From Bryopsis sp. KO-2023 (Eukaryota > Chlorophyta > Ulvophyceae > Bryopsidales > Bryopsidaceae): a stretch of DNA of 64,000 nucleotides. Location of the stretch: assembly GCA_030272585.1 (NCBI GenBank), contig BSYQ01000010.1:2046001-2110000 (forward strand), written 5' to 3'. Positions within the stretch are counted from its first letter, which is position 1, and every line of letters begins with the position of its first letter. This document shows, one piece after another, positions 1 to 54,790 of the stretch. The translations under genes were made by a program, and so were the position numbers. The notes below the pieces were generated by a model. The model was not told where the DNA came from, ran no database searches, and saw nothing but the letters and a program-made list of their open reading frames with translations.

Positions 1-3000
1 GGCAAGTGTGCTCGACAGGTGTGGAGCACCACCAAGAGGTGCCCTGTGTGCTCGGGGGAAATGATGAAAAAACCCAAAATTTTCCGCCCTCCCAGATACC
101 AGTGATTAAAACAAGGGAAGAGAAAAAAGGAAAAAAAAACCAAAAAACAAAAGAGAAAAATGCCCCCGTTTTTTCCGGTTTTTCGTTGTTTTTTTGTTGT
201 TTTTTTTTTCCGGTAAAAGAGAGAGATTAAGAAATTGAGATTTCATGGCACAATGAGATTGTGCATGTGGGTTCATTATGAGAATGAATTTGGGGGGTTG
301 GGGTAGGGATGGGTTGTGACTGTGCGTCAGGTGGTTTTTCTATAAATAGATATGAATATAAGTATAGGTGTGGGGGCAAAATGTGAAAAAACGTATTATG
401 TGCTCTGTTTGGCTGATTTGTGAAACGAAGATATATTTGAGTTGGGCGTTCGTCTTTTTTTTCCCCTTTTTTTCTTTTGGAGGGTAAAAAAAAAAAAAGA
501 AAAAAAAGGGGGAATTGGGAGGAAGTCCACAAGAATGTTTTTCAAGAATGCATCTTTAATCAAAAAAAAAAAGAAAGGGAGTGGGAAGAAGAAACAAAAA
601 AATGAGCAGTGTTCGTTAAGTTCGATCAGAGCAAAAAAAAAAAAAGTGGTTTTATCATAAAAAAAATTGAAGAGAATTTTTCAAGGCCTTCAAAGAAAAA
701 AAAAAAAGAAAAAAAGGTGAACAAGAGCCGAAAAGAAAGTTAAAAAAAAAAAAGAAAGAAAAAATCTGTTGGACACAGTGAGAGAGAAAATGGAAAAAAA
801 CAGTTGAAAAAAAAATATGGAAAATATGGAAAAGAAAAAGAAATGGCTGCCTGGACTGAATTATCTATCATTTTGGGGGTTTATTTATATATATATATAT
901 ACATATATGTGCATACACATAGCAATATCAAGAATGAGTGTTTTTTTAATTGCATTTGATGCTTTTGTTTTCGACATGTTTCTATTTGGGGTTATTTTTT
1001 GGGGATGTTTTGTTGTTTTTTTCTTTACCCTTTACCCTTTCCTCTCTTGGGAGGGAAATGCAGGGGTGGAGGGCAAGAAAAAAAAAGAAAAAGAACAAGA
1101 AGACTACATTGAGTGTTTTTTTTTTGTGTTTGTTGGCATGGTGAAATTTCAGCCACAGCCGAAAGTTACTTCGAAAGTTACTTTTTTTGGGGGGAAAAAA
1201 AACAAGAAGGGAAAAAAAAAAATGGGAGTTTATGAGGGCAACGATCGTTTTATTAGGAAATAATGCAATGTTTCGGAGAAAAGGGGGGGGGGGGGGGGAG
1301 AGAGAGTCTGTGGCAAAAAATTATGTAAACCCGTTTGCCCGTTCCCCCCCCCCCCCCCCCTTCCTTTACGAAAAGCGATTTCCTGTTTCTTGAAACCTTT
1401 CGTTTGTGTGTGTGTTTTTTGGAGAAATAATTTTTGTTTTTTCCTTTTTTTTTTTAAGAGGGGGGTGGTTTTTGGCAATGTTGGGGAATGGGCTTGTCAT
1501 TTGTTGGGTTGATGAAGAAATTATGCTGCATTTGAAAACAATGGGGTGATTTTTTTTTCTTTATTGAGCAACCTTTTTTTTGGGAGGTTGCTTTTTTTTG
1601 ACAGATATATCTGTATATATTTACGTTTTATTTTTTGGGGCGGGAGTTTTATTGTTACTTTACGAGGATGGTTCAGTTCAATCTTGCTTACCGAAAAACA
1701 AGTGCTTCTGTGTGCCGGTTTTTCCCTCTTTTTTTTTTTGGAATTTATCGGTGTTTTCTTCAAATATGATTTGCATCGTGGTCCAAAAAAAAAAAATCAA
1801 GGGAAGGCATCAGATTAAAAAAAAAAAAAAGGAAGTGGTGCTGCCCTTTAAAAAAACAAGAACGTATCCAGTTACTGGGATGTTTCTTTTTTTTTTTTTT
1901 TACTGGGTGTGTTTTTAATTGCATGTAAGGGGTTTGGAAAGGAAAAAAAAACCGCTAGCCCTGTTGTTTTTATCACAACTGTTTATAAAACAAAACAGGG
2001 GGAAATGTAAGGCCAGAAAAAATATGATTGTCAAATTTCGCGTGTTGATGAAATAAGACGTGATATCAATGGTTGGTTCAATGGTGAGATTTCAAATTCC
2101 CAAGCAAAAAAATCAGGTAGAAAAAACAAAAAAATAGGCATATATGTGCGGAGAAACAAAAAAAAAAGATTTTTTTTGTCCCTTTGCAAGATGCTTTTTT
2201 CACAACATGATGAGCTGGCAGGCAGGTAGGCTTGCAATATATTTCTTGAAAAAAACGTTTATTTAACTTTTTCGGAATATATATTGCATGATTCGGGGGC
2301 AACGGAGCCACGGCAAAAATACGAACAAGAAAAAAAAATCAACAATTATCCAATCTCGTAGTTCAAAATCATGGGTAAATCTGGGGCATGACATTTTGCA
2401 CTTTTTCAAATATTCACTAATTTTGGGGGGGAAAAACCCCAGCCATTCCTGCTATGATCGATTTTGGGAAAAAAAAGGGGGAGGGGGGATGATGCCACGG
2501 TATGTTTTTTTTTTTTGCTTTTTTGGGAGGAAGCCTTAGCAGAATCGACAAACGGAACATCCCTGGGGAGTTTTTTTTTGTTGCCCTTCTTGATGGGTTT
2601 TTTCTTTTGACGGGATGAATGAATGCAAGGTTGGGTTCTTTCCCTTTCTGGCTTCCCTTTCCATTCCTTCCGTAATTATATATATATATATATAACAATT
2701 CCGGAAGGGCAGGGGGGGGGGGATTGTATTGACATTAGCCCTTTCTGTTGGGGGGGGAAATTTGAAACATGCATCAAGTTCTCCAAGTGTAATCTTAGTC
2801 GATTGTGCGATGTTACAACAACAAGAAGTTGAAAACGAAGAAGAAAAGAAAAAGAGAATCGCAAAAAGAAAAGAAAAAGAGAATCGCAAAAAGAAAAGAA
2901 AAAGAGAATCGCAAAAAGAACAAAAAAAAGGGGGGGGGGGAAAGAAGGTATTCTGACATAGCATATCACATCTTTGAATGGCTTCGGAGTTTGGAGTGAG

Positions 3001-3850
3001 TTTTTTTTTTTTTCCCTTTTTTTTTGTTTCAATGGCTGGAGGACTGGCAATGGGATAATAAAAGAAAAGACCCAGTGAAAAAAAGTAAATGTTGGAAGTG
3101 ATTTAGGGCAGACATCATACTTTTTATAACGCACCGTTTGCAAGGAAGTGGTGGGATTGCTTGTGACCTATCCGTTTTTTTAATGATTCCAAATTCTCAA
3201 AACAGAAGAAAAAAGAAACCAGCTGATTGATGCATGGCTTTACAAGGAACAGGATTTTCTTTCATTTTGCACCCGTCCAAAAGAAAAAACCAAGTGCAGC
3301 TGGATAGAATCACATATACATATATTACACATATATATATATATATATATTACATGGTGTTTGCAAAAAATCCCAAAAGCATCTGGGAAAAAAAAATTGC
3401 CAAGCAGGATGGATGTGAATGTAATTGAGTAGGTTCAGTGGGGGATCTGCCTTGCATGATGGATGATGCATTTGTTGCTTGTGTATTTTGTGTATTTTTC
3501 TTTAAAAATTTTATATTGATGTGGCACATCAAGGAACAATACAAACTCAAAAAAAAGGTCGTGTCCTGTAATAGATTTTTGCCACCTCTCTCCAAAACCT
3601 AAAATTAGTTCCGATGCCATTCTTTGTTGGATATATTATGTTTTGTTTTGTTTTGTGGCAAATATTTGGCCCCAATTGGCAAATCCCTGCGAAAAAAACA
3701 GGTTTGGCAACAAGCAGTTCGAGCCAAAAAAATATAATGAATAATAATATGATCAGAAACTGTTCGAAACAAAACGAAACAAATTTCAATGGACACATCA
3801 TGGACATCGTGAAAATTTTCTTAACATGAACCACAATCACAAGGCTTTCA
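1..3850. other. Homopolymer-rich stretch, no gene recognised
   Basis: Long A and T runs with many G-runs on the + strand (for example near 1285, 2430, 2716, 2745 and 2930) and only one long C-run (about 1336-1359). All open frames are Lys/Phe/Gly low-complexity translations of these runs and show no domain. G-runs on the sense strand are typical of introns elsewhere in this window, so this may be intron or 3' flank of a + strand gene lying to the left. That is inference. Confidence 0.6.
2853..2921. repeat. 25-bp purine tandem repeat, about 3 copies
   Basis: The unit gagaatcgcaaaaagaaaag plus aaaaa is repeated about three times inside a purine tract. It gives Lys/Glu/Arg-rich translations in the overlapping frames and looks like simple tandem expansion. 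Confidence 0.75.
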
Positions 3851-10971: not shown

Positions 10972-13900
10972 TGGTTTCGGAGCGAACAGGGTGGATCCTG
11001 GCCTTTGGGGGCTTGGCTCTACTAGCCGGTATGTCGCTGCTGTTACAGCGACCACCGACGATATCAGATCAAAATCAGAGATAGGACTTTCCGGTTACGG
11101 TACCGTAAACCGTACCGTAACCCCACTCCGGTCACTTACGGTTACGGTAGTTACGGTCCGGACCGGAGTGGTTTTCGTGCTCGGAACCGGACCACCGTAC
11201 CACTCCGTACTGCTCCGGTACCGGACCGTACCGACCGTAACCACCGTACCAACCGTAAATAGTAACCCCCGCAGGGTCCCGAGAACCCAAAGGAACCCAA
11301 GGGGATTCGAACCCACGACCTTACAGACTACAGCCAAACGCTTTAACACTGAACCACACTACTTCACGATGATTTAGGGGCTACCGTAGCTATACCGTAC
11401 CTGTTCCGTACCGTAAAAACAACATATTACTCCGGTTACGGTACGGAGTTACGGCCGTAATACGGAACCGTAAACCGACCGTAACCGGACCGGACCGTAG
11501 CCGGACCAAAAATTTGGCCCAAGTCCTATCTCTGATCAAAATGCGGCGCCGGCAACACCAGCCGGAAGGGTGCCAGCAACGTATCCCCCATCACCTCCTC
11601 CATTCTCTACGCCTCACACGCCCAGAACGTCTCCACACGAGCTCTGGCAGAGGCTGATGTGGTCGATCAGACATCGACACTCACATCGTGCCCTACCCTC
11701 CCCTTCACCGAACCCCGCTGCTGCGTGGGACACCCTGGAGCTTGTGCAGCTTGCAGACAGGATGCACAAGCTCTGGGGTGTCCTGCGGGGATCCAACGCC
11801 AACCTGGTCGGAGCAGGGATCGCCTCCTCGCTTCTGCTGGGGTACCTACTGAAGTTCCTCGACAAAGGTTCTGCATGGTTACGGCGGCGTAGAACAGAGA
11901 CGGCGATGAGAAGGGAAGTCCTGGAGCTCGGGAGTGCGGCGCCTGCGGCTTCAGTTTCGACGGAGGGATCAGCTACGTTGGACAGACTTCGGCGGCTGCA
12001 ACAAACGGAGGAGGAGACAGAGTTGGAGTTCTTGCAGCGGTTTTTCCTGATGTTCTTAAACACGGGACAAGCGGCGGAGGTGGAAGAGGAGAAAAAAGCG
12101 GTCAAGCTACTCGTGGCCCGGTTACCGGGGAGGGTGTTGAGCCGCGTCGTGTTGGAAACAGAGTTCGAAAAACTGACCTTCAGCGGACTTCGGGAGCTTT
12201 TGGATCGAATGAAGAGGAGGACGGAATACAGGGAAGCAGTTCTCGCGGAAGTAAAGAAGGAGGAGGAGGGAAAGGCAGAAGTGAAAGTGGATGCTAAAGC
12301 AGAACCTAAGGTGGGGACGAAAGTTTTGGTGGCGGACAGGCCACCTACTCGGACGGGAGAGATTCCGTACTGCCAGTTTTGCGGGCGGAAGGGGCACTGG
12401 GAAGCGCAGTGCCGGACGAAGAGGAGAGCGCAGGTGGCGAGTGTGGAAGAGGATGCTTTCGGCGAGCTGCTGGAGGCAATACAGCACGAGCAGCCGTCGT
12501 CGTCGTGCCATTCGGTCGCAGCAGGAACGCCCGCCGGAGATACGGTGCGAAAACAACTTCGGGTGAAACTCAGGCTGGAAGGAGAACAGGGAGGGAGTAA
12601 CCACCTTTTCGAAGCGTTGGTCGACAGCGGAAGTGGATGCTCCATCATGCCATGGAAGGTATGTCAAAGGCACGGATGGGTAGTCGCTCCTCCGAAAGGA
12701 GTGCTAACGCTGACCGGGTTCAATGGAAGCAAGGAGAGCGTGCGAGGGACGGTGACGCTCGACGTCAAAGTAGGACCGTGGGAGGGGAAGGAAGTATTTT
12801 TGGTTTCGGAAAACACATCCCAGATTATTCTGGGCGTCCCCCTCCTCGCACACCTTTCCCTCACCGTCGACTGCGCTCGCAACTGCCTCTGGGGCAAGAA
12901 CGGAACGTCCATCCCTTGCCACGCAGTCATGAAGGTAGGGGAGAAGTCGGGAGAGTTAGAGCGGGGTGTGGTTCGAGTGCTGCAAGACCCCCTCACGAAA
13001 AAAGGACGCAGGATTCGTTTAGTGGGAAAGGATGGGGAGTTTCGGTTACCCCTGGGTTCGTCGTTGGTTCTGGGACCCTACGCGATTAAAACGGTTGTTC
13101 TTCCTTTTCGAATTACTGGGCCTGGCCTGTTTTCGTTAATGGCCATAGGACAACCCCACAACCTCCTTCACTCTGTGACGACGAACTCCGACGGAAGAGT
13201 TCGACTCACGCTGTATAACGCCCAGTTGGAGGCGAGGATGCTTACTGCAAAACTGTGTTTGGTTAGCTTCAGGGTGGCTGAGGGAACGCCGGTGGTGATA
13301 GAGGAAGGAGGAGCAGAGGAGGAATGTGTCGAACGGGAGGAGGATGGTTTACTGCCCCATGGTTTGGATCTCAGAGAGAAGGAGGAAGTGGAACCTGAGG
13401 AGGAGGGGTGTTTTGGGATTGAAAAGAAGGGAGATGGAGGATGTCAAACAGTTTCTTTTCCACCACAGGAAGTGGAATCTGAGGAGGGGGGGTGTTCTGG
13501 AATAGAAAAACAGGGAGATGGAGGATGTAAAAAGGTTTCTTTTCCACCACCAAAGAATGACTGTGGGTCACTGGAAGTGTTTGACAGAACCAGTGGTTCG
13601 AAGGGCAGTTGGGGCACAATGCAGTCGAATCAGGACTGTGTTTCACAAACAGGCCAGCTTGCATCTGTTGGACAGCAGTTGAGCCCAGAGGGGGACAGTA
13701 GAGTACTATCGAATTCTGCCCAAAACAGGGATATACCGACCATCAGTTCCGACTCTGGAGAACAGCATCTCAGTTCAGGGGATGGGTGTGTGTTACGGAG
13801 TTCAACAACACAGAACAGTGAGGCTGTAGCTACTGAGAATCCAACAAACAGTGCAACACTGAGGAAGAGCCAGAGCACAGCCTCTCTCACAGAACTGGAT

Positions 13901-16900
13901 GTGAGTTCTGCTACGCACTATCCACTCAGGGACAGGATTGAGGGGAAGGACTCTGAGAATGAGGGGAGAACACAGACATCAAACACAGACTTTGAATGTC
14001 AGCCCAATAGCTCTAATGCTACTGGACAGTTCATCAGTTCAGATAGGGAGAAGGGAGAAAAGAATTTTGGCTTACACACCAGCAGTTCAGAGGCTGTACA
14101 TCACTTACCCAAGTCAGATACTCAGGGAAGGGTACAGCAGTCGAAATTCCACACACAGGAGGAGAATGTAGCTTCTGAGAGTCCTGCAAACAGTGCTACA
14201 CTGGGGACAAGCCAGGGTACATTCTCCACCCCCCAGCAGGATCAATGGAGGGACTTACCAAGGGGGAGAGAGGGACGGACATGTGGGGAAGACCAAGGCA
14301 CCCAGAGTGTCCTCACACCTAACAGCCTGACTGCACACAGCACTCTGCTGCAAGAAAGCAAAGCTGTAGCTACTGAGAGTCCTACAGACAGGGAAACATT
14401 GGGACAGAGCCAGAGTACAGTTCAGAGTTCACAAAAGGAAAAAGGGGGCTGCTCACCCAGGGGGGGGGTAGTCGGGGCAGTGGAACAAACACACAATGAG
14501 GGACAGACTGTAACTACTGAGAGTCCCACTAACAGTGACATACTGGGGAAAACCCAGAGTTCAGTCTCTCACCTTCAAGAGGAAAAATTACTCTGCTCAC
14601 CCAGGGGGGGGGTAGGGGGGACAGTGGAACAGGAGCACCTTGATCTCTGGAAGTACTGGGAAGCCCTCAGAGGGAAACCACCAGGCAGAAGTTTTAGCGA
14701 ACACACTACATCCCCTTTCTCTCACCTGACGACGATTTGGGAGGAGGTGGCTGACGACCTTCTCGACAACACCACAGCAGTAGGGACAGGGGAAAGACTC
14801 TGGAACGGACATACTGCTACGGTGCAAACCACTCAGGAACAACCTGCCTGCACGTCGGAAACGCAGTCAGAGACGGAGGATACAGGCTCAGTGGAATACT
14901 GGCGACGCGAATTTCCGAACGTGATTCGTGACGACCTTAGCAGAGACGCAAAGGCGACTGCTGCTCCTCTTCGGGTTTGCCACAGGGAGGTGAAATGGCG
15001 CGTTCCCTTCCACAGGATTCCGCTGCACAACACGGGGATACGGTACTACGCCACCGACGTCGCGCCTAAGGAGATTCGAAAACTGCTTACCTCGTTGCAG
15101 GGGCAAGGCGTCATCCGTCCCCTGGGCGTCGGCGAGCGGGCTCTGTTCTCCCCGGTCCTGTTCCTCCGCAAACCCAATGGCAAAGTCAGGAAAACGGTGG
15201 ACTTCCGCCTCCTGAATTCGTACTCGGACGCCTGGAAGACGTCCCTGCTCCATGTCCGGGATGTGCTGAAGTCGATCCCACCGGAGTGGGACTACTTCAC
15301 CGTCCTGGATCTGGAGCAGGGCTTCTTCCAGGTGGACGTTTGCGACGCCCTCCAACCCCTCTTCGCGTTCGAAACCGGAGAGGGGGATTACACCTACCTC
15401 CGTCTCCCCCAGGGCTGGAACTGTTCGCCAGGGCTGTTCCACTCCCGCATCCGGAGCTCTATCCATGGATACCCCGGTCGTAACTTCGTCGACGACCTCA
15501 TAATCGGCGGAGAAGGCGTCGAAGGCCATGACAGGAACCTGCGACGTGTTCTGACCAGGCTCGACGAAATGGGATTACGGATAAACAGGGAAAAAGCGGT
15601 CGTCAGACAAAAGGAGGTTACCTACTTGGGGTACACGGTCACGAAGGGGAGCTACGGCCTTCGACGCTACGTCGACGACCAAGTGCGTCAGTTGCCAGAA
15701 ATGCGCGACGTCAGGGACGTCCGTCAATTCGTCGGCATGCTTAATGTCTGCAGGGGAGTTTGCCCGAATTTCCATAACATCATTCAACCTCTGCTGGAGC
15801 TTCCCAAGGGATCGAATTCGAAACTCATGCAACAGTTGGTGGCAGAAGCATGGAAATCCATACTGACTAATAATGTCAAGTTGGGTAATTCAGATTCTGG
15901 AGAGTATAATCTGTTTACAGACTGGTCATCCTCTGGGTGGGGGTATGTTCTGTTCAGAGGTACCCCCTCAGAGGGGTGTATCGTCAGCCTCAACAGTCGA
16001 AAGTGTGCGGATAAGGGAGGAGAAAAAGTCAGCTCCTATTTGGGGGAGCTTCAAGCTCTAATATGGGCATTGAAATCGGTTTCACAGGTGGTGGCTGGGG
16101 GTCAGCTAACCCTGCACACTGATTCGAACTCAGCAGTGCAAAGGATTACGAAGTTAGCACCGAAAGAAGTCGTGGAGGACATCAGAGTGGTGCGTCTCTT
16201 GGCTTGGTTGGCAGAGAACTACCCCTCCCCTGGAAGGTTGAGGGTTCAATTCCTGCCAGGGACATCTAACCCTTGGGCTGATCTCCTGTCTAGATGGTAC
16301 AGCAGGCCAACACAAACACAAGGGCAGGTGTGTGCACTTGAACCACAAGAGATGCAAATCAGTAAAAACACAAGCATGGAATCAGGAGGATCCAACAGAT
16401 CAACAGAACAGGTGCTGGAGCAGGCTGAGGCAGTGGACTCTAAAGAGAGTGATTCAGGAAGGTCTGGCATGTCAGGAAACACAGAGTTGGGACATGCATA
16501 TACAGGAGGCTCAAGAGGAGAGGAGTTGGGCAAGATAGCGGAAGGGAAAGAGCTGAGCAGAGATCAGCTGGAACGGTTGCACAAGGAGGGACACTGGAGC
16601 CCACAAAAATTGCTATGGCTGTGTGCACAACATGGATGGAAGGCTAATAGAGGAGATCTGGAGGAAATTCAGAGGTACTGCCAGACCTGCCAGAGGGTAG
16701 CCCCTAAGAAGGAAAAAGAACTTCTTAGGGGAGCTGGGCATCTAACCCACCCTGGTCAAACAGTGGGCATGGACATCATCGGTCCACTACCCTCTGGTAG
16801 GTCTGGCCACAATCATATAGTAGTGGTGGTGGACCACCTCTCTCGTGATTCGATGGTTTGGAAGACAAAGGAGGTGAAGGGGAAACAGGTCAGAGAGTGT

Positions 16901-17506
16901 TTAGGTGAGTGGATAGCGACTCATGGATCTCCAGACAACCTATTATGTGATGGAGCTGCCTACTTCCATTCGAAGGACATGAGAGCATGGTACAAAGACA
17001 ACCACATTCAGGTTTGGAGGACACCCCCTTATCACCACAGAGCGAATGGAGTGGTGGAGAGGAGGAACAGAGCTCTGATTTCTAAAATCAGAGTACTGTT
17101 GTTGGATCATGGAGGGTATTGGGATGATTGGCTGCAAAAGGCCAACTGGATGGTCTGCAACATGGTGAATAGAACCACTGGATGGCCACCATGCAAAGTG
17201 TGGACACTATCAAGCAAGGAGTGGGATAGAATTCAACAGAGATTGAAGGAGAGCAGAGATAAGGTGAATGCACAGAAAAAATTGTCTGACTGGAATCATT
17301 TTCTGGGAGAGGAGGTCCTTTTATATGATTCAGCAAGGGCTGAAAAAAAGGATCAGAAATTCAGTGCAAGTTGGAAGGGACCATATAAAATAGTGGAACT
17401 GATTTCCCCCAGTCGAGTCAGGATTGAGGAAATCAATGGCAAACTCAGGAGGGGTAGGAAACCCTTCCTAGAAGTGCACAAATCACAGATCAGGCACTTC
17501 TTCTGA
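10971..17506 (+). CDS. Element 1 gag-pol polyprotein, interrupted by a MITE
   Basis: The frame opens at ATG 10971, runs to 11075, is broken by the MITE with its 8-bp target duplication (467 bp added, which shifts the frame), and resumes at 11543, staying open to TGA at 17504-17506. Counting from 11570, motifs are: zinc knuckle CQFCGRKGHWEAQC near residue 266; aspartic protease DSGSG near 350; RT with DFRLLNS near 1209 and FVDD near 1306 in place of the common YxDD; RNase H with TDWSSSG near 1447; integrase HKEGH...CQTC zinc site near 1670 and a D,D,E core from about 1733, with HHRANGVVERRNR near the final Glu. Between protease and RT lies a linker of several hundred Ser/Thr/Glu/Gln-rich residues with internal repeats. 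No chromodomain. Confidence 0.9.
10972..10983 (+). other. Primer-binding site of element 1
   Basis: TGGTTTCGGAGC starts at the base after the LTR. It implies a primer tRNA ending GCTCCGAAACCA. The same 12 bases occur next to the 5' LTR of element 2. Because the ORF starts at 10971, this site lies inside coding sequence. Confidence 0.7.
11076..11534 (-). mobile_element. hAT-like MITE with internal tRNA-like sequence (copy 1)
   Basis: 459 bp. Terminal inverted repeats are CAGAGATAGGACTT and its complement, flanked by a perfect 8-bp duplication ATCAAAAT (11068-11075 and 11535-11542). CAG-type ends and 8-bp duplications are hAT hallmarks. The interior is dense in CCGTA/TACGG motifs and holds a pol III B-box (GGTTCGAATCC, minus strand, 11302-11312) with an A-box-like region near 11341-11365. 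No transposase. It breaks the element 1 ORF, so it moved after that element inserted. Confidence 0.9.
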
Positions 17507-17707: not shown

Positions 17708-18034
17708 TGTTGGACCGGGTAGAACACAAGTACTGAAAGACAGACATAAGAGCGTCACATCAACAAATCCACACAACGGACACTCATTTCTAATGAAAGT
17801 ACTACCACACGATTTGACTCTGAGAGCGATGTCAAATGTGTTGAATCGACTGGTCAGTGCGGGTGAGAGGCCCCATGGCAGTAGGGGTTTTACGTTAGAA
17901 GTACGAGGTATGAGTCAGTGGAGGAAGTGTGAGAGTTGAGTGAGTCGGGAAGGAAAGTCTGTGAACGGGAGTTCGGGGTTGTCTTTTTGTTGTAAGACTT
18001 TTTTTGCGGAAGGCTCGTTCTTCCAGTAACAACA
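17708..18034 (+). repeat. Element 1 right LTR
   Basis: 327 bp, matching 10645-10971 along its whole length by eye, followed by the target-site copy CACT. Confidence 0.93.
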
Positions 18035-18038
18035 CACT

Positions 18039-18953
18039 CGAGAAGATCGCTATGGCTGTACACCAAAAAAGAAAGGAAAAGGGAAACCATCACCTGCAAA
18101 GAAGCAAAAAAAAAGAAAAAAAAAACATTTTGCACTGTGGAGGGTGGATGATTAATGAGTAAAATGCTGCCTGAAAAGTTGCATTGTAAATTGTGGAGGA
18201 AACAGACAACCCCCAGCATGTGTTTTGTAATAATTTATTATCGGTTCGATTATTACAACGACAGCATGCAGGAGAAACGAGAAAAGAGTGAAGTTTCTTC
18301 AAGTTGTGCTTTTCCCCTAACCTTTTGGAAAAGGATCACCCCACAGCCAGCCACCAGGATTTGTTGCAACAAAGAATCCGGTGAAGGTTTTTGAGTTTGA
18401 AAACTATGAAAAACATAAAATCCCATAAAAACAGAGCCCATAACATAATGGGGAATGGTTCAATCAATGGATGAAAACGCATCAATTGCTGCTGTCCAGC
18501 TTTGTGGAAGATCTCTAAGACCTCAGTTGTGGCCCGTTGTGTGAAGTTTCAGGGTTTGCTTGACCGCTTGCCTTTTTTTTGCTGCGATTTTACCGCCCAC
18601 AAATCCCCCCTTTCCACCCCATCTTGGAACTGCAATTGAGTACACCAGAACAAACAAACAAACATCAATTACATTGTGTAGGAGAAATATTCTCCTATTA
18701 CAAGGATCAGTAAAAATCAAATGTGAACATGTACACCAGAACACAAAACCGAGGTCCAAAAGAAAATCTTGCGGATTTGGATTCAATCAAGAACAAAAAC
18801 GGCGGCGCGAGATGAGTTTGATTACAAGCCGAGGTTTCTCCATTTTTCCTCCTTTTTTGGACTTCTTGAGTGCACCAGCCGCAAGTGGGGGGGACCCAGG
18901 AGTTTTTGGAAAGCGTTGCGCAGGGACGAGGGACCTCGGTCGGTAGTGGAGCC
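18039..18953. other. Spacer upstream of the eL20 gene
   Basis: AT-rich DNA with no recognised exon. The last 100 bases before 18954 are richer in G and C and probably contain the promoter and 5' UTR of the ribosomal protein gene. No element boundary was seen beyond 18038. Confidence 0.5.
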
Positions 18954-21583
18954 ATGGACGTCAAAAGGAAGAGCAAGAAGTTCAGCAAGACGGTGGTAGG
19001 TCTCGGTTTTTTCGAATCGTTTTCGTTTCTGGGTTTCTTTTGTCCCCGATGAGATCCCCCCTCTACGGAGAATAACAAGAATCACTACCCACACACGGAC
19101 GAACCAACGGAAAAACAAGACACTAACCCACAATGGGTTTTTCCCCCCTTCCTCGGCATATGTTCATTGAATTTTCTGGCGACAGCTGGGTTTTCCCCCT
19201 GAGTTTTTTTGCGGTTTGGACGACTTTTCCAATCAAGCACGGGATGGACTTATTATTCGTATTTTTTTAACTATCGGTAGGGTGCGTATACGTACAAGCA
19301 ATACCATGTGGTCGGAAGGCATTTGCCGGGAGTGGGGAAGGCCACCGAGGAAGATACTCCTCTCTACAGAATGAAGATCTGGGCTAAGGACCACGTCAAG
19401 GCTAAGAGTAAATTCTGGTAAGCATGTCTAGAGCTCTATCCTTTGTCTTGCTTGTTTCATGTTTTTTTGGTTTATTTTATTTTCGGGTTTTGCTGGCATA
19501 TTACCCTCTATGAGGGTGGTGGGGTTTTTTTGATGAATGACAGAAAGAGAGGGTGGGGGGGGTGCTTCTTGGCATATCGTTGAAAAGGCTTGATTTTTTT
19601 GAGGTTTGTATATTTTGGAAACTAGAAGAGGACAGGGTATATGTATTGGGCGGTACTTTTGGTTGTATCACTGGATGCATTCGTTTTCTGTTGGTTTCAT
19701 TGTATTTTGTTTTGATTTTTTTTCGGTTTTTTTTTTTTTTCCCCCGAATGAAACAGGTTTTTCTTGAAGAGGCTCAGACGTGTGAAGAAAGCCAACGGTC
19801 AGATCATTTCTGTGACTGAGGTAGGCACCGAAAAGAAGTATTTGATTTTATTCTTTTTAATGCTTAGATGGAAAGATAAGAAAGTGAGCTTGGGTATATC
19901 CAGCCTCTGCTTGTCCTTCTTTTTGAAGGAAAGGGTTTCTTTTCAGTTCCATCATTTGCGCTTGTTGGATTTTTTTGAGGGAAAGGGTAAAGAAAGGGAG
20001 AAGAATTAGGAAGATCATTATAGAAGGAATGATGAGAAATTTGCCAAGGCATTACCCTGACGATGCTAAATCATCACTGATGATCAATGCAAATATCCTC
20101 GTTGAATCTGACCTTCGTTTTTCTGGTTTTTTCCTTTTTTTTTGGGGGGGGGGGAGGGGAGTCTTTTTGAGGGTATTCAATTTTTTTTTTCCTCCTGGTG
20201 GTGTTTAAGATCATGGGAAAATTGGGAGGAATGATGAGAAATTTGCCAAGTCATTTTTCTGAAGATGCTAAATCATCACTGATGATCGAAGCAAAATCCT
20301 CGTTGAATCTGACCTTTCGATTTCCCTCATTTGTGACAACTTTATTTTTTGAAGATAAAGTTCCCAAAGCACTTTGTTTACACACAAACCGTAGCATTTT
20401 CTATCCTATCCGGACAGCTGGGGCATTTGTTTTAGCAGAAATTAGGGGGTGTTTGAGGCTTGTGGGGGAGTGATGAGAAATTTGCCAAGGCATTGCCCTG
20501 AAGATGCTAAATCATCACTGATGATCGAAGCAAAATCCTCGTTGAATCTGACCCCTTTTTCCTTTATTTCGAAAAGTTTGGGAGCGATCATTGAATCCTG
20601 GTCGATACAATGTTGGTCGTGAAATTTTGAGCAGAAATCAGTGAATCGGTGGGAGTGATTAGAACACTTGCTATCACTGAGCTCCACGTAGAGCTTTGAT
20701 GATCGGCAAAATCCTCGTTGAAGAAATGACCCATTCTCTTATACCAAACATGCATCTTGGAAATGGATCCTCCTTGGGTTGAAGTAGTATTACCCCTGGA
20801 CCATTCTGTGTTTTTTTTGGGGGGGAGGGGGCACCATAAATATGGCTATTTTTTGTTGAAATGGGGTTTCAGTGTGGTGTCATGGTGTTGCATTTCAGAT
20901 TCCTGCCCAAAACCCCACGGTGCCCAGGAACTATGGTGTTTGGATTCGATGCCAATCTCGAACCGGTACTCACAACATGTACAAGGAATACAGAGATGTG
21001 ACGATGAACGGGGCAGTGGAGCAGATGTACAATGAGATGTCCGCCAGGCATAGAGTCAGAGTTCCTCAGATTCAGGTACCCTCCACAAAACAATCCATTT
21101 TCTGGTGCTTTGAAAAACAATGGGTTTCAACCGATTTTGTATATCGACCATTTTTGTTTGGACTGCGTGGAGGGTTCATTCGACTGAGTATTGAATCACT
21201 GTCTCTGGATGGGGGCTTTTTTCTTAGCTGTGTGTTCCCTAGCAGCGCATTTTATCATGCAAAAACCACGATCGAATCCCTTTTTTTTTCCAATGAGTTG
21301 TTGGGCCACCTGTGGATTGCATACCAGTTTGCCCAATCGTCTTGTTTTGGCATCCAAGGTGCTGAATGATAAGGATGAACCGAGCGTTTGATACCGTATG
21401 TCTGACTTTCTGCAGATTATCCGTGTGGCCGAGCTGACATCCAACCAGTGCAAGCGAAGTCAAGTCGTCCAATTCCACGACAGCAAGATTAAGTTCCCAG
21501 TCGTGCAAAAGAAATACAGGGCTCCCCAGCACCACATGCGCAAACTGTATGCTTACAACAGACCCACTGTCAGTATGTTCTAA
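18954..21583 (+). CDS. 60S ribosomal protein eL20 (L18a), five exons
   Basis: Structural protein of the cytosolic large ribosomal subunit. Predicted exons: 18954-18995, 19281-19417, 19757-19820, 20899-21075 and 21416-21583; GT-AG throughout with consistent phases, giving 195 residues, slightly above the usual 175-180 because of a basic N-terminal extension. Family motifs are [58 protein letters not shown] and [11 protein letters not shown]. The ATG at 18954 opens a 14-codon first exon ending just before the conserved domain, a common layout for ribosomal protein genes. Introns are rich in T and G runs. Intron 3 hosts C/D snoRNA-like repeats, matching the known habit of snoRNAs residing in ribosomal protein introns. 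Confidence 0.95.
20023..20116 (+). ncRNA. Intronic C/D-box snoRNA, copy 1
   Basis: Lies in eL20 intron 3. Box C ATGATGA (20029-20035), box D' CTGA (20057-20060), box C' TGATGAT (20078-20084) and box D CTGA (20108-20111). GAAGG (20023-20027) pairs with CCTTC (20112-20116) as the terminal stem. The antisense element before box D, TCCTCGTTGAAT, is complementary to an 18S rRNA segment resembling ATTCAACGAGGA near the 3' end of 18S (recalled, not searched), predicting 2'-O-methylation at the first A after TTC. About 94 nt, a usual C/D length. Confidence 0.8.
20224..20318 (+). ncRNA. Intronic C/D-box snoRNA, copy 2
   Basis: Same box order as copy 1: C at 20231-20237 and D at 20309-20312. The stem GGGAGG (20224-20229) pairs with CCTTTC (20313-20318) using G-U pairs. 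The guide before box D is the same as copy 1, while the region before box D' differs. Confidence 0.8.
20465..20555 (+). ncRNA. Intronic C/D-box snoRNA, copy 3
   Basis: Box C is GTGATGA (20470-20476) and box D is CTGA (20548-20551). The stem is GGGG (20465-20468) with CCCC (20552-20555), again different in sequence from the other copies but still paired. The box D guide TCCTCGTTGAAT is conserved. Confidence 0.8.
20651..20732 (+). ncRNA. Divergent or decayed fourth snoRNA copy
   Basis: It retains a C-like GTGATTA (20655-20661), CTGA (20677-20680), a C'-like TGATGAT (20697-20703), the shared stretch GGCAAAATCCTCGTTGAA and a GGG/CCC end stem (20651-20653 with 20730-20732). Box D has decayed to ATGA and box C has one substitution. 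Probably a pseudogene copy, or a diverged gene. Confidence 0.45.
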
Positions 21584-22483
21584 AAAAACCCAGAAAAGCT
21601 TGCAGTCGTTTTTGCTCTTTTCTTGGGATTTTTAAACACAGCTGTGGTTTCTTGTTTCGTCCTTGTGTCGATGAGGAATGGATTTTTTTTTCCGGACCAG
21701 GGTGGGCTTCGTCTGGGAAAAGAAAAAGGGGGGAAATGGAAAAAAAAAATCGAAAAAAAAAAGATTTAAGACCAAGGTGGATGATCTGGAGTGGTGGCTT
21801 ATGTTGAATTGGAGGAGGTTGTGTGTGTGTGTGTGTGTGTAGTAGAGGTTATTTTCTTGGGTCGAATATCATTTTCTTATAGTCCCACACAAGGAGTTCA
21901 AGATTTTCTTTTTAGCCCCTCCACCTTGCCCGGCCACTTTTTCCCCAGCCGTTTCCCATGGCTCTGTCTCGCCCCGATTGCAGCAGGAATAAACAAGAAA
22001 GAAAGGACTTGACCTCGCTCCGATTGCAGGAGGAGTAGACAAGAAAAAACGACTTCACTGCACACGAAAAGAAGAGGTCCTTATATACATAATGGCTGAC
22101 CAGGGGTTGTGATTCCTCCAGAAAATAACAAGATCATACACTTCCTTTCAACAGTCCCATGTTGGACAAAAGGAGTGATGGGGAAAAAACAGTCCGTTTT
22201 AACCAAAATAAATTCTTTTGGGAATGAAAAAGCCTTCTTTTGCAGTACCCCTCCAAACAACAGTCTGAGCCCCCATACATGGCAAGAGGCATCTTTGATT
22301 CGCATCCTAGAAAGTGGTTGTAGGCTGCTTTATTCCTGTAGGCCAATGTAATCATTGATTGATTGATCGATTCCTGTAGGCCGGTTTTTCTAGTGCAGCA
22401 TAGATTAACAGAGATGGGTGTGTTCCACATGGGTTGGGGTCTTTTCATGGAAGTGATCACTGATCACAGAGGAAACAGGGTGG
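21584..22483. other. Spacer 3' of eL20
   Basis: Contains a (GT)n tract near 21821-21840, a short direct duplication sharing ccgattgcag and aacaagaaa (about 21970-22046), and the 25-bp insertion at 22345-22369. No gene recognised. Confidence 0.5.
22332..22382 (+). mobile_element. 25-bp non-LTR retrotransposon tail with 13-bp target duplication
   Basis: ATTCCTGTAGGCC occurs at 22332-22344 and 22370-22382, flanking a 25-bp insert that reads TGTAATCATTGATTGATTGA with short ends. The same 3' motif occurs at 29389 and 30757. A minimal insert with a long target duplication fits a severely 5'-truncated LINE or SINE insertion. Confidence 0.6.
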
Positions 22484-22825
22484 TGTTGGACCCGAGAAAA
22501 CACAAGTTCGGACAGTCGGACAAAGCGACATCACATCAACTGATATCCACATCTGGCTCTTAATGAACGTCAGATCATGAGAATGACTCAGAGAGAGGAT
22601 TTGTAACGACAACAACAACGACAATAATTACATATTGATTTGTATCGATTGAATCGACTTGTCAGGACTGTAGAGACACCACTTCCGTGACATCTGGGGT
22701 TTACATTAGAAGTACGAGGTATGAGTAAGTGGAGTGAGAGAGTGAGGGTTGAGTGAGTCGGGAAGGAACGAGAATTCGGGTTGTTTTTTTGTTGTAAGAC
22801 GTTTTTTACTTCTTCAGAAACAACA
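22484..22825 (+). repeat. Solo LTR related to element 1
   Basis: 342 bp, TGTTGG...AACAACA, alignable to the element 1 LTR along its whole length (shared blocks include TTAGAAGTACGAGGTATGAG and GTTGTAAGAC) but clearly diverged and with an AAC-rich insertion. Flanked by a 4-bp duplication GTGG (22480-22483 and 22826-22829), the same duplication length as element 1. No internal element sequence follows, so this is a solo LTR. Confidence 0.85.
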
Positions 22826-22879
22826 GTGGTAGAAATTGAGGAAACGCGGTCAAAAACCAACTGGGGACGCGCGTCGCGG

Positions 22880-23341
22880 ATGGCGGAACGAACAAAAAAG
22901 CTCAGCAAAGCGAGGGGGAGGGCAAAGGAGCCAATGGAGGTGCCGGCGGTGAATGGTTTGAAAGAGCGTTGGGTGGAGAGCGATCTGACGATGTTGGAGG
23001 CGGCGGATGAAATCGAACGTTGCAGGGGGCGGATTAAAGATTTGGAAGCGGAGGTTGAACGGAGAAAAAAGCGAGACGATGAGATACAATCGGGGCTGAA
23101 TGCCCTGAAGCGGCAGATAGTGGAATTGGGGAAGCTGGTAGAACAGGACAAAAAACAGCGGGCAGAAAATGCGGCGCTGTGGGCCGAGAATCAACGTTTA
23201 GCGAAGGAGATGCAAAATTCGGAGGGATTTGCCAGGCTTCGTCAGATTCTTGGTAAACGGGGTCATCAGGCTGTGTCAGGTGCCAGCGAGGCCACACCAA
23301 GTGAAAAGCGAGCGTGTTCTAAGATTGAGTGTGGAGAGTAA
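22880..23341 (+). CDS. Coiled-coil protein of unknown function
   Basis: Single-exon ORF of 153 residues starting at ATG 22880, 54 bases after the solo LTR. The frame is also open upstream into the LTR, but that part is noncoding repeat. The N-terminus is basic (KKLSKARGRAK). Residues about 30-120 form a long charged heptad-like coiled coil (ADEIERCRGRIKDLEAEVE, then LKRQIVELGKLVEQDKKQRA). The tail is basic with scattered Cys. No catalytic motif and no membrane span. The layout resembles the coiled-coil part of the accessory ORFs of elements 2 and 3, but I see no Cys/His cluster. The GC-rich coding patch in AT-rich flanks supports a real gene; function unknown. Confidence 0.55.
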   Translation: MAERTKKLSKARGRAKEPMEVPAVNGLKERWVESDLTMLEAADEIERCRGRIKDLEAEVERRKKRDDEIQSGLNALKRQIVELGKLVEQDKKQRAENAALWAENQRLAKEMQNSEGFARLRQILGKRGHQAVSGASEATPSEKRACSKIECGE

Positions 23342-44510: not shown

Positions 44511-44727
44511 AGCTCGGTAACACTATAGGAAATTCGCTGAATACGTTGTAAGCAATCGCATGGTTAATGGCATCATTAACGTTGTTCTACACCCCTTTTG
44601 CATGGTTGTTTTTCATCGTTGTGGAGTGCATACTTAACATTGATGGTTTTTTTAGCACCCTGAAGCAGCCGGCGAATCGCGCAGAAGACCCGATTAGCAT
44701 GGTTGACGTCTTTTGGAAACGACATGG
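44511..44727. other. Leader of the 57-bp array with an inverted unit fragment
   Basis: Contains GTTGTGGAGTGCATAC, the complement of the GTATGCACTCCACAAC segment of the 57-bp unit, so a fragment lies inverted to the array. No gene. Confidence 0.5.
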
Positions 44728-45082
44728 TTGGGTACTCCATTCGCAACGATGCAGTTTACAACGCAGACAGAAGATTTTACATCGATTAGTATGCACTCCA
44801 CAACGATTCGGTTTACATCGCAGACAGGGGATTTTACACTGATTAGTATGCACTCCACAACGATTCAGTTTACAACGCAGACAGGGGACATCACACCGAT
44901 TAGTATGCACTCCACAACGATTCAGTTTACAACGCAGACAGAGGATTTCACACCGATTAGTATGCACTCCACAACGATGCAGTTTACATCGCAGACAGGG
45001 GATTTCACACCGATTAGTATGCACTCCACAACGATGCAGTTTACAACGCAGACAGGGAATTTCACACCGATTAGTATGCACT
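44728..45082 (+). repeat. 57-bp minisatellite, left block
   Basis: About six units of 57 bp, each containing GCACTCCACAACGATTCAGT and CGCAGACAGGGGATTTCACA. The unit is 19 codons long, so several frames stay open on both strands. Units vary at a few fixed positions. The block is cut from the rest of the array by element 2. Confidence 0.9.
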
Positions 45083-45555
45083 TGTAGTGAATCCGCCTGC
45101 AGACCGCTATTGTGGGCTGCCGGCTGTGAACTGCAAGCCTGAAACGGCTTGGAGGGAAAGAATAGACGACTTGGAAGCGAGACAAAGGGAGTTGAATCCC
45201 AAAGTAAGGTTACAAGAACGTTCAAACCCCAAGAACTTATAGAATACCCTAGCAGCCTTGATCCTAACTGATCATAGGCTGTAACATCAGTCTGCATCAC
45301 TGCTGCAAGGCATCAAACCTTGCAGTCCTTTCAATCAGAGCCCAGCTCAGCCCCACGGCCATTCCTGTGGTGCTGAGCCACCTTCTAGAACATTCTAGCT
45401 GCCAGCTCAGTAGTCCACGTACTACTTCACTGCCAGCACACCCTGACTGACTGTATGCTGCCTCAGGGCAGCCAGCCTCCTACTTAAAGTACTGCAGGAC
45501 TGTCAGCAAGCCTGCTGACGTACTGCAGGGCTGTCAGAAACCCTGATTCGCTACA
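45083..45555 (-). repeat. Element 2 3' LTR
   Basis: 473 bp, same length and apparently the same sequence as the LTR at 53076-53548. The adjoining 45556-45566 reads ATGGGGAGGAA on the minus strand, a good polypurine tract. Confidence 0.95.
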
Positions 45556-47163: not shown

Positions 47164-50100
47164 TTACTGTGCTTTCCGACTAGGACGTCGCCTCATTGCG
47201 GTCCCTTCACTCCTTTGCTGATAGTCACGTAGTACATCTCGAGCATTCTGCAAATGTTCTGCAGGTTCCCATGTGTCCTCAGATTGATCATATCCCTGCC
47301 ATCGAACAAGGTACTGCTTCTTGCCTCTGACAGTTCTGTCTGCCAGAATTCTGTCCACCTGATATTCCTCTTGACCATCCACAAGCTCAGGTTCCGGTTG
47401 CCACCTGGGTGCCTCCCTTGCTGGAAAGCTGCCCACCTGATCTTCAAATGCAGGTTTGAGCTTGGACACATGAAAGACATCATGTATCCTCCAGTGACCT
47501 GGCAGTCTCAACCTGACTGCAACCTCAGAGAGCTTTTCAGTGACTTCAAATGGTCCACAGTACTTTGCTGACAACTTTCTGCTCAACACTGCAGGTAGGG
47601 GTAAGTCTTTTGTGGCCAGAAAAACTTTTTCGCCTGGCTCAAAGCCCCCTCCCCGCCTGGTTTCGTCCGCCACCTGGCGTTGACGTGCCTGAGCAGCAGC
47701 AATATTGTGTCTGCATTTTTCCAGATCAGATTGCCAAGTAGTCCACCAATCATCCACTGCAGGGCAGGCTGACACAGCCACAGCACTTGCAGGAGTCCTT
47801 GGGTTCTGCCCATTCATCAAATAGAAGGGGGAGAATCCAGTAGTAGCATTGACACTGGAGTTATAAGCAAACTCAGCAGCTGCCAAGTGCTGGTCCCAAT
47901 CTGTTCCTGCAGGTTCAACATAACTGCGCAGAATTTCCTGCACTGTTCTGTTAGCCCTTTCAGTCTGACCATCTGTCTCAGGATGATAACTGCTTGACAT
48001 TGCCAATCTTGTTCCAGCCTTCTTCCAAAGAGACCTCCAAAAATTGCTAGTGAAACGAGTATCCCGATCAGAAACAATTTCTTGAGGTAACCCAAAGAAA
48101 CGAACCACATTCTGGAAAAATAAATCTGCTACCCCTGCAGCAGTAACCGTCTGCTTAGTCGGAATAAGTCTGATCATTTTTGTGAACCTATCCACAACCA
48201 CCAACAAATAATCTGACCCAGTTCGAGTTCTAGGTAAAGGCCCAACAAAGTCAAGTGAAACACTGGTCCACCTGCCATCAGGAATAGGCAGGGGCTGCAG
48301 CTTACCCAAAGGCCTCTGATTAGAAGCCTTATTCCTCTGACATGAAATGCAATTCCGGACATACTTGTGCACTGACTCGGAGATGTGGGGCCAGAAATAA
48401 TGCAACTGCACCCTGACAAGGGTCTTCCTTCTGCCCAAATGTCCTGCCAATGGGGACTCATGGCAGTCATGCAGTATTTTCTCCCTGAGCCCATCTGCTT
48501 CAGGAATCCACCATTTCCAAGCATTCCCAATTCTTCTCCAGAGCCTTTGGCCATCCCATTTCACATGTCCAGGTCTGTGTCTTGCAGTGATCAACTGTTG
48601 ACACAGTGGATCTTTTGAATAAGCTGTCTGCACCTGTTGCAGGAATCCTTCTGCAACTTCCAGCCTAGCCTGAGCATTCATTTCAGACTTTGTTTCCTCC
48701 ACTTGATGTGTGGCCCTGCTCAGAGCATCTGCCACCACATTGTCTCTGCCTGGTCTGTACTTAATCTCGAACTTGAAAGATTGCAGAGTCTCCATCCATC
48801 TTGCTTGCCTCTGCGACAGGTGAGGCTGAGTATGCAAGAACTTGAGGGGTGCATGATCGGTGTGCACCACAAACTCTTGTGCATCCAAATAGTGTCTCCA
48901 GACCTTCAGAGCATGCACAACTGCTAGCAGCTCCTTTTCATGAGTAGCATAGTTGAGTTCTGCAGGTTGCAGCTTCCTGCTTTCAAATGCAACTGGCTGC
49001 TGACCCTGTCCCTTGTCCTGAGTTAGGACTGCTCCTATTGCATAGTCCGAAGCATCGGTGGTCACTTCAAACTTCAGACTTGGGTCAGGCACCAATAGTA
49101 CCGGTGCAGACATCAATGCCTCCTTGATATCCTGCATGGCTGCAGCTTCTGTCTCAGTCCATTTCCACTCTGCATCCTTTTTGAGTAATGCAGTCAAAGG
49201 CTTGGCTCTGGCAGAGAAGTCCTTCATGAACCTCCTGTAGTAGTTTGCCAATCCCAAAAAGGACCTGAGATCCTTCACTGATGTCAAGGGTGGCCAATCT
49301 CTGATAACCTGCACCTTGCTCTGCAACACCTGTACTCCTGCAGCACTTAACTCATGCCCCAGAAACTCAACTTGATCTCTGCAGATCTCACACTTTGAAG
49401 CTGATGCATACAACTTCTGTTCCCTCAACCTCTGCATCACTTTCCGCAAATGAACTTTGTGTTCTGCCCAATCTTTGCTAAAAATCAAAATATCATCCAA
49501 GTAAACGATGCAAAAGGCGTCCAGAAAATCATGCAGCACATGATTCATTGTGTTCATAAAAGTGGCAGGGGCATTTGTCAGCCCAAAAGGAAGAACAACA
49601 TACTCATAAAGGCCATACCTGGTGCGGAAGGCCGTTTTCTCACAATCTGCAGGGTCCAACCGCACCTGATGGTAGCCTGAGCAGAGGTCAATCTTGCTGA
49701 AGCAGCGTGCTCCCTGAATCTGATCCAGCAACTCCTCTATCCTCGGGATAGGATACCTATTTTTCACCGTTAGTTTGTTAAGTGCCCGAAAATCCACACA
49801 CATCCTAAGTTTCCCATTTTTCTTAGGAACAAACAAAACTGGCGAACCCCATGGAGACTTGCTAGGTCTGATAAATCCCTGCTTCAGCAACTCTGCTAAC
49901 TGCTTTTTCAGTTCTTCTCTTTCTGCAAAACTGGCCCTATAAAGCCCCTTTTTCACTGGTTCTGCACCTTCCACCAACTCAATCTTATGATTCACACCCC
50001 TGTCAGGAGGTAACTCCTGCGGCAGTTCCTCTTTAAACAAATCCTGAAACTCCTTTCTGATCTGTTTTTCTAACTCAGCTGCCTCTTTTCCTTCCTCTGA

Positions 50101-50328
50101 CAAGGTTTCTGCAACACTGCCTTTTACTGCATCAGTACTTTCCACATTATTAATCAAATGTTCTTCCTGAACTTCCCGAAGATTTACCAAATACATCGGC
50201 ATACCCTTGCGGGCTGCCCGAGCACACTCTTTGGCGGACATCATATCCAAATCTTCAGTACTGCAATCCTCTACTCTACCATTCTGCATTCTGAGTTTGA
50301 CTACTCCCTGAGGTGTCTGCAAAACCAA
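47164..50328 (-). CDS. Element 2 pol: RT, RNase H, integrase, chromodomain
   Basis: 1054 residues counted from ATG 50328. RT: MCVDFRALNKLTVKNRYPIP, then YLDD at 276-279. RNase H: TTDASDYAIGAVL and THEKELLAVVHAL. Integrase: H/C zinc site (HLGRRKT...CISCQRNK), D,D,E core with SLDFVGPLP, SDRDTRFTS and TDGQTERANR. C-terminal chromodomain at about 975-1040 (VDRILADRTVRGKKQYLVRW, then GYDQSEDTWEPAEHL), which in chromoviruses directs integration to marked chromatin. It is in the same frame as the protease ORF, separated from it by one TGA at 50341-50343. Confidence 0.95.
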   Translation of the reverse strand: MVLQTPQGVVKLRMQNGRVEDCSTEDLDMMSAKECARAARKGMPMYLVNLREVQEEHLINNVESTDAVKGSVAETLSEEGKEAAELEKQIRKEFQDLFKEELPQELPPDRGVNHKIELVEGAEPVKKGLYRASFAEREELKKQLAELLKQGFIRPSKSPWGSPVLFVPKKNGKLRMCVDFRALNKLTVKNRYPIPRIEELLDQIQGARCFSKIDLCSGYHQVRLDPADCEKTAFRTRYGLYEYVVLPFGLTNAPATFMNTMNHVLHDFLDAFCIVYLDDILIFSKDWAEHKVHLRKVMQRLREQKLYASASKCEICRDQVEFLGHELSAAGVQVLQSKVQVIRDWPPLTSVKDLRSFLGLANYYRRFMKDFSARAKPLTALLKKDAEWKWTETEAAAMQDIKEALMSAPVLLVPDPSLKFEVTTDASDYAIGAVLTQDKGQGQQPVAFESRKLQPAELNYATHEKELLAVVHALKVWRHYLDAQEFVVHTDHAPLKFLHTQPHLSQRQARWMETLQSFKFEIKYRPGRDNVVADALSRATHQVEETKSEMNAQARLEVAEGFLQQVQTAYSKDPLCQQLITARHRPGHVKWDGQRLWRRIGNAWKWWIPEADGLREKILHDCHESPLAGHLGRRKTLVRVQLHYFWPHISESVHKYVRNCISCQRNKASNQRPLGKLQPLPIPDGRWTSVSLDFVGPLPRTRTGSDYLLVVVDRFTKMIRLIPTKQTVTAAGVADLFFQNVVRFFGLPQEIVSDRDTRFTSNFWRSLWKKAGTRLAMSSSYHPETDGQTERANRTVQEILRSYVEPAGTDWDQHLAAAEFAYNSSVNATTGFSPFYLMNGQNPRTPASAVAVSACPAVDDWWTTWQSDLEKCRHNIAAAQARQRQVADETRRGGGFEPGEKVFLATKDLPLPAVLSRKLSAKYCGPFEVTEKLSEVAVRLRLPGHWRIHDVFHVSKLKPAFEDQVGSFPAREAPRWQPEPELVDGQEEYQVDRILADRTVRGKKQYLVRWQGYDQSEDTWEPAEHLQNARDVLRDYQQRSEGTAMRRRPSRKAQ

Positions 50329-53788: not shown

Positions 53789-54254
53789 CAGAGATAGGAC
53801 TTGGGCCAAATTTTTGGTCCGGCTACGGTCCGGTCCGGTTACGGTCGGTTTACGGTTCCGTATTACGGCCGTAACTCCGTACCGTAACCGGAGTAATATG
53901 TTGTTTTTACGGTACGGAACAGGTACGGTATAGCTACGGTAGCCCCTAAATCATCGTGAAGTAGTGTGGTTCAGTGCTAAAGCGTTAGGCTGTAGTCTGT
54001 AAGGTCGTGGGTTCGAATCCCCTTGGGTTCCTTTGGGTTCTCGGGACCCTGCGGGGGTTACCATTTACGGTTTACGGTTGGTACGGTGGTTACGGTCGGT
54101 ACGGTCCGGTACCGGAGCAGTACAGAGTGGTACGGTGGTCCGGTTCCGAGCACGAAAACCACTCCGGTCCGGACCGTAACTACCGTAACCGTAAGTGACC
54201 GGAGTGGGGTTACGGTACGGTTTACGGTACCGTAACCGGAAAGTCCTATCTCTG
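53789..54254 (+). mobile_element. hAT-like MITE with internal tRNA-like sequence (copy 3)
   Basis: 466 bp, opposite orientation to copies 1 and 2. Perfect 8-bp duplication TCCACAAC (53781-53788 and 54255-54262). Inverted ends CAGAGATAGGACTT. A-box-like sequence at about 53960-53985 and B-box GGTTCGAATCC at 54010-54020 on the + strand. By eye nearly identical to copy 1 except for a short internal indel. Confidence 0.92.
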
Positions 54255-54790
54255 TCCACAACGATTCAGTTTACAACGCAGACAGAGGATTTCACACCGA
54301 TTAGTATGCACTCCACAACGATGCAGTTTACATCGCAGACAGGGGATTTCACACCGATTAGTATGCACTCCACAACGATGCAGTTTACAACGCAGACAGG
54401 GAATTTCACACCGATTAGTATGCACTCCACAACGATTCAGTTTGCAACGCAGACAGGGGATTTCACACCGATTAGTATGCACTCCACAACGATATAGTTT
54501 ACATCGCAGACAGGGGATTTCACACCGATTAGTATGCACTCCGCAACGATGCAGTTTACAACGCAGACAGGGGATTTCACACCGATTAGTATGCACTCCA
54601 CATCGATTCAGGTTACAACGCGGAAAGGGAATTTTACACCGATTAGTATGCACTCCACAACGATATGGTTTACAACGCGGACAGGGGATTTCACACCGAT
54701 TAGTATGCACTCCACAACGATATAGTTTACAACGCAGACAGGGGATTTCGCACCGATTAGTATGCACTCCACAACGATGTAGTTTACAAC
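54255..54790 (+). repeat. 57-bp minisatellite, right block
   Basis: About nine more units. Including the two blocks to the left, the original array had about 20 units. The last units are more variable. Confidence 0.9.

Follow-up and report, generated by a model that had tools for sequence, protein, structure and literature searches.

A box C/D snoRNA array in an eL20 intron of Bryopsis sp. KO-2023 with predicted guides to one segment of 18S rRNA

Four related repeats in an intron of a ribosomal-protein gene raise three questions: whether they are small nucleolar RNA genes, which bases of the organism's own rRNA they would address, and whether the diverged fourth copy still belongs to the set. 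The repeats lie in a 64-kb window (the whole stretch of DNA analysed), which is part of contig C10 of a 91.1-Mb assembly in 28 contigs.

The array and its host intron

A preliminary description had placed snoRNA genes in intron 3 of eL20 (RPL18A), and the match of the joined exons to PF01775 (E 6.3e-24) bears out this placement. Chains of eL20 from solved ribosomes also match the exons, with a best E of 1.1e-64. The intron occupies window positions 19821-20898 on the plus strand (1078 nt, GT...AG splice sites), and the following exon begins at 20899. A second eL20 copy was not found; both matches of the eL20 C-terminal part fall at the array locus. Elsewhere in the window, long open reading frames at 11570-17506 (plus strand), 47164-50328, and 61312-63963 (both minus strand) resemble Ty3/gypsy-type retrotransposon polyproteins, as judged by eye from their translations. 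Two further minus-strand frames, at 44587-45300 and 54246-54767, are built of tandem HTNRCEIPCLRCKLHRCGV-like units and probably reflect a DNA tandem repeat.

The four units are all encoded on the plus strand. Unit 1 (20023-20116) is closed by the terminal stem GAAGG/CCTTC and carries box C (ATGATGA) at 20029-20035, D' (CTGA) at 20057-20060, C' (CTGATGA) at 20077-20083, and D (CTGA) at 20108-20111. In unit 2 (20224-20318), the stem GGGAGG/CCTTTC can be lengthened to 11 pairs if G-U is allowed, and the boxes lie at 20231-20237 (C, ATGATGA), 20259-20262 (D'), 20279-20285 (C'), and 20309-20312 (D). Unit 3 (20464-20556) has the stem GGGG/CCCC plus one G-U pair, with box C (GTGATGA) at 20470-20476, D' at 20498-20501, C' at 20518-20524, and D at 20548-20551. 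The diverged unit 4 (20648-20735) ends 3 nt beyond the position first given for it, 20732; its stem is GGTGGG/CCCATT, and its boxes are GTGATTA (C, 20655-20661), CTGA (D', 20677-20680), TTGATGA (C', 20696-20702), and ATGA (D, 20726-20729). Consensus boxes C (RUGAUGA) and D (CUGA) stand near the ends of units 1-3, and the internal boxes D' (CTGA) and C' (nTGATGA) are present in all four.

These features confirm the array as originally observed: every unit has its four boxes in the order C, D', C', D, and the end stems differ in sequence yet pair, with 5, 11, 5, and 6 contiguous pairs in units 1-4 (G-U included). The gap before box C is a constant 1 nt in all four. Across units 1-4, the third stem pair reads A-T, A-T, G-C, and G-C, and the fourth reads A-T, G-T, G-C, and T-A. 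At random positions from approximately window 18001-23000, a stem of at least 5 pairs in the same geometry was obtained in 1.5% of 200,000 draws. The final descriptor, which was set post hoc (RTGATxA ... yTGA, x-y Watson-Crick, stem of at least 5, gap of 1), recovers exactly the four units on the plus strand of the 64 kb and nothing on the minus strand; two reversed-sequence controls gave one match in total. An earlier, looser scan with canonical boxes, stems of at least 4 pairs, and variable gaps returned units 1-3 on the plus strand and two matches with 4-bp stems on the minus strand.

An Rfam search of the window gave no family at its gathering score, the best sub-threshold match reaching 25.3 bits versus 45, as is expected if no family model covers the array. 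The intron stretch gave 21 sub-threshold matches with E up to 10; C/D snoRNA families account for 19 of them, including one on the minus strand. When the naked RNAs are folded to minimum energy, the core of the D guide pairs with box C in units 1-3. This pairing competes with the kink-turn, so proteins would need to overcome the naked fold.

No further copy of the array was found in the 91-Mb assembly at the sensitivity used, that of a DNA search that skips common words and could therefore miss divergent copies. With unit 1 as the query over the assembly, only units 1-3 are returned, and unit 4 returns only itself. The pattern TTCCTCGTN{0,8}CTGA occurs at 153 places in the genome versus 122 in the reversed control, which is near chance; among 30 of these loci, one has a loose box-C variant, which lies approximately 40 nt upstream, closer than in the array, and two more that were read by eye have no box C. 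The stricter pattern TGATGAN{45,75}CCTCGTN{0,8}CTGA occurs at 19 places versus 1 in the reversed control. Three of the 19 are units 1-3; among the other 16, only locus L105 has a 5-pair stem, in a different geometry, and L095 has a stem of 4. Viral contigs containing CCTCGTTGAATCTGA (41 loci) were set aside as chance occurrences, since none has an exact box C in the 100 nt that precede it. One entry of the viral collection, L001 (IMGVR_UViG_3300029287_000002), ends in approximately 750 nt of eukaryotic 18S joined to a sequence unrelated to it and is likely a chimera. Literature text searches for TCCTCGTTGAA and UCCUCGUUGAA returned no title concerning snoRNAs.

D guides and their predicted 18S target

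The organism's own 18S gene lies on contig C24. The target segment, which reads GGTCTTCAACGAGGAATGCC, is the same in the three rDNA copies found there and in a fragment of 18S located on C7. Complementarity to a conserved 18S segment upstream of box D had been proposed. The segment does occur in the organism's rDNA, but the complementarity amounts to 11 bp rather than 12, the 18S reading CTTCAACGAGGA. The proposal that units 1-3 share one D guide holds, the guide being invariant among them. In unit 1, the guide (D+2 to D+12, 20096-20106) pairs with 18S 1531-1541, and its predicted 2'-O-methylation target is A1534, as it is for the guides of unit 2 (20297-20307) and unit 3 (20536-20546). The guide of unit 4 (D+2 to D+14, 20712-20724) pairs with 18S 1529-1541 and is shifted by 2 nt, with U1532 as its predicted target. 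All four guides are on the plus strand.

Pairing is uninterrupted Watson-Crick from D+2 over 11 bp in units 1-3 and 13 bp in unit 4, and each unit therefore has at least 10 bp of rRNA complementarity directly upstream of box D. The duplex energies with 18S are -17.6 kcal/mol (units 1-3) and -22.1 kcal/mol (unit 4). Among approximately 2,960 random 22-mers drawn from the neighbourhood, a score of 11 was reached by 1. When the D duplexes with 18S are ranked for each unit, the top three listed lie within 1529-1541 in every case. Against 5.8S, the D guides form at most 7 pairs.

Positions were converted to yeast numbering through C1604, which we take to be the base methylated as Cm1639 in yeast and Cm1645 in Arabidopsis. 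On this basis, A1534 corresponds to yeast A1569 and U1532 to yeast U1567, and the letters agree at three check positions. By the same conversion, a functional orthologue of yeast snR57 or Arabidopsis SnoR8 would be expected to place G1537 or A1538 opposite D+5, where the array has A1534 (units 1-3) and U1532 (unit 4). The methylation register itself depends on the D+5 rule, to which exceptions are known. Yeast D' boxes lacking the 5' C are described as shifting or doubling the methylation site (PMC5389607). Box D of unit 4 likewise lacks the 5' C, and its target could thus also be the neighbouring C1533, should such a box be read at D+6.

Two resemblances to the 18S of other eukaryotes were dropped. 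A target AACGAGGAT in the 530-loop area was rejected because the organism's 18S has ATCGAGGAACG and the best D duplexes listed all lie within 1529-1541, and a sense resemblance of ATTTGCCAAGG to the 18S of other eukaryotes was rejected because the organism's 18S matches no further than CGCCAAGGA. Apart from the guides, the 18S gene on C24 (locus L047, minus strand, 1358-3112) has GGTGCCAGCATCTGCGGTAA in place of the GGUGCCAGCAGCCGCGGUAA of the Rfam eukaryotic consensus; GGTGCCAGCATCTGCGGTAA represents two changes in a 530-loop strand and is identical in the three C24 rDNA copies. Pieces of 18S outside the rDNA contig comprise a long partial on C7 (L049, Rfam 500.6 bits) and a short match on C22 (L052; 38 bases, 97%), on which Rfam makes no call.

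Unit 4, the history of the copies, and alternative explanations

The fourth unit had been described as decayed, a view that its structure does not support: the compensating stem and the kink-turn pair are retained, and the D guide is longer, at 13 bp. Unit 4 is off the box consensus, with box C changed from GTGATGA to GTGATTA and box D from CTGA to ATGA. Both changes fall on bases that pair in the kink-turn, where G-C is replaced by U-A, and the unit carries the compensated variant GUGAUUA/AUGA. Its terminal stem is re-formed from different bases, and D' and C' are intact. A hairpin between D' and C' (GCTC-CACGTA-GAGC; 20681-20694, plus strand; 4 bp, 6-nt loop) stands at about the place where units 1-3 have GATG-CTAAAT-CATC, of the same size with other bases; as an argument it is weak, since each hairpin alone is attained by 8-10% of shuffles. 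The box variant has described precedents. The snoRNAs GtNM-R12-14, from cryptophyte nucleomorph small-RNA loci, combine AUGAUU with AUGA. These changes are termed compensatory by the authors, who cite archaeal mutants that regain protein binding once both are made (PMC6461891). In Dictyostelium, too, a small fraction of the snoRNAs is reported to have an AUGA box D (PMC8817022).

Units 1-3, each approximately 90 nt long, are 91-93% identical to one another and lie 202 and 239 nt apart; being related, they are not independent observations. The MAFFT alignment, which misplaces the 3' end of unit 4, was not the basis of the pair counts. No clear similarity is seen among the spacers: for 9 of the 10 spacer pairs, the observed score was reached by 9 to 92 of 100 shuffles, the exception being the pair s1-s4, whose score was reached by 1 of 100. 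Similarity ends at the unit borders, which fits RNA genes that are under selection or are kept alike by conversion. The "active" duplication suggested in the preliminary description is not demonstrated: the spacers cannot be aligned, and the copies are therefore not of recent origin unless the units are held alike by gene conversion.

The explanation that best fits the array is a set of four intronic C/D snoRNA genes, of which units 1-3 likely direct modification of 18S A1534 and unit 4 that of U1532 or a neighbour, an assignment that we make with good confidence from the boxes, stems, and guides. Two alternatives concern whether the units function at all. One keeps units 1-3 as functional A1534 guides and treats unit 4 as a decaying, functionless copy. 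Unit 4 does stray from both box consensus sequences and no longer has the D' guide of the other units, and its D'/C' hairpin alone is attained by 10% of shuffles. However, decay should break pairs of the kind seen here, so the compensating box changes and the rebuilt stem count against it; D' and C' are also preserved, and the guide exceeds those of the other units in length. We consider decay of unit 4 unlikely. The other alternative, that the repeats are neutral intronic copies without RNA function, would agree with the appearance of the array at one locus only. It is hard to reconcile with four box sets with compensating stems, a guide that fits the organism's own 18S, and conserved units amid unalignable spacers, and we regard it as highly improbable.

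Other alternatives accept the RNAs and assign them a different role. The D' side might be the main guide, aimed at 28S, an snRNA, or an mRNA, with the D guide secondary. Long identical stretches are kept around D'/C' in units 1-3, and in units 1 and 3 the D' guide could pair over 7 bp with 18S 1541-1547, adjoining the D target; pairing of at least 7 bp within 18S 1521-1560 was obtained with 2.3% of random 22-mers from the window. The D' scan covered 18S and 5.8S, because in each of three rDNA units on C24 the 28S consists of exactly 5000 N after the 5.8S gene (L053 4602-9601, L092 1-5000, L093 4502-9501) and is unreadable, which leaves room for a 28S target. Against a leading role for this side, the D' guides differ between units next to the box, whereas the D guides are invariant in units 1-3; unit 2 lacks the 7-bp match; and at their best the D' guides match 18S and 5.8S no more closely than random 22-mers match 18S. 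The 7-bp pairing next to the D target in units 1 and 3 is suggestive only, and a D'-led function seems to us quite unlikely. Less expected still is that the D-guide pairing serves an 18S folding or processing chaperone or another modification, such as acetylation. The pairing covers the equivalents of the first bases of a functional ridge described between P- and E-site tRNA at yeast 1575-1578, which adjoins the region (PMC9418376), and C/D snoRNAs that guide acetylation are on record (PMC5464676). Unbroken pairing from D+2 past D+11 nevertheless has the geometry of a methylation guide, and C/D RNAs of yeast and plants are reported to guide methylation in this very segment of 18S (PMC5199042, PMC8053127).

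Proposed function and relation to known systems

These considerations allow a working model of the array as a set of methylation guides. The four snoRNAs would be released from the eL20 pre-mRNA, and in each the C and D boxes would form a kink-turn that the terminal stem holds closed, as the compensatory changes support. The RNAs would then bind Snu13, Nop56, Nop58, and fibrillarin, the last of which has a gene in this genome. The element upstream of box D would pair with 18S rRNA around CUUCAACGAGGA; units 1-3 would direct 2'-O-methylation of A1534 (yeast-equivalent A1569), and unit 4, with its 13-bp guide shifted by 2 nt, that of U1532 (yeast-equivalent U1567) or a neighbour. The copies probably arose by local duplication, after which selection would have held the RNA units as the spacers drifted apart.

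A sliding guide, in which compensated duplicate snoRNAs aim at two bases, A1534 and U1532, within a single 18S hot spot beside the P/E-site ridge, is a possibility that we advance tentatively. If it is true, the spot would stay methylated while the precise base that is modified could drift freely, as the marking of other bases of the hot spot in yeast and plants would also imply. The array would constitute a new C/D snoRNA family beyond the Rfam gathering scores, with a predicted 18S site absent from the table rows compared. The novel elements are the base predicted to be methylated, the occurrence of two registers side by side, and a compensated kink-turn in unit 4; guide register, stems, and kink-turn pair are seen changing together inside a single intron. 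Because the segment contains yeast m7G1575 and lies beside the P/E ridge, the importance of the exact methylated base is directly testable.

Within the same 10 nt, yeast 18S is reported to carry Gm1572, guided by snR57, and m7G1575, made by Bud23 (PMC5199042), and Arabidopsis 18S to carry Am1579, guided by SnoR8 (PMC8053127); a plant survey lists snoR8 as an orphan and a recent innovation (PMC5122169). Methylation at the equivalents of A1569 and U1567 is absent from the yeast and the Arabidopsis, tomato, and tobacco table rows compared and from the Dictyostelium table. As judged from the numbering, snR57, also a box C/D RNA, addresses the same conserved CAACGAGG segment of 18S; its methylated base, Gm1572, lies 3 nt downstream of the predicted A1534, the two being compared by target position only (PMC5199042). 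SnoR8, likewise box C/D, addresses the same segment by position, again from the numbering, and its target lies 4 nt downstream of A1534 in a comparison that is also of target position only (PMC8053127).

The box variant of unit 4 is closest to that of GtNM-R12-14, which combine a box C ending in AUU with a box D of AUGA in a compensated kink-turn; unlike unit 4, those RNAs are nucleomorph-encoded, and the likeness is confined to the described box variant (PMC6461891). Neighbouring bases of one rRNA segment are also addressed from one guide region by yeast snR13, U18, and snR48, which methylate two nucleotides each, but there a single RNA with an unusual C'/D' motif is described, whereas the array uses separate copies with shifted guides (PMC5389607). 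Arrays of this general kind are well known from the reports cited here, both as C/D copies that share a host gene and as the clusters of Chlamydomonas and plants. The Chlamydomonas and plant clusters, and human families within one host gene, likewise reflect local C/D duplication inside one transcription unit (PMC7671301, PMC8178906), and the human hosts described include the ribosomal-protein gene RPL17 (PMC8178906). The eL20 array differs from those clusters in having four copies within one intron and one guide in two registers (PMC7671301, PMC8178906).
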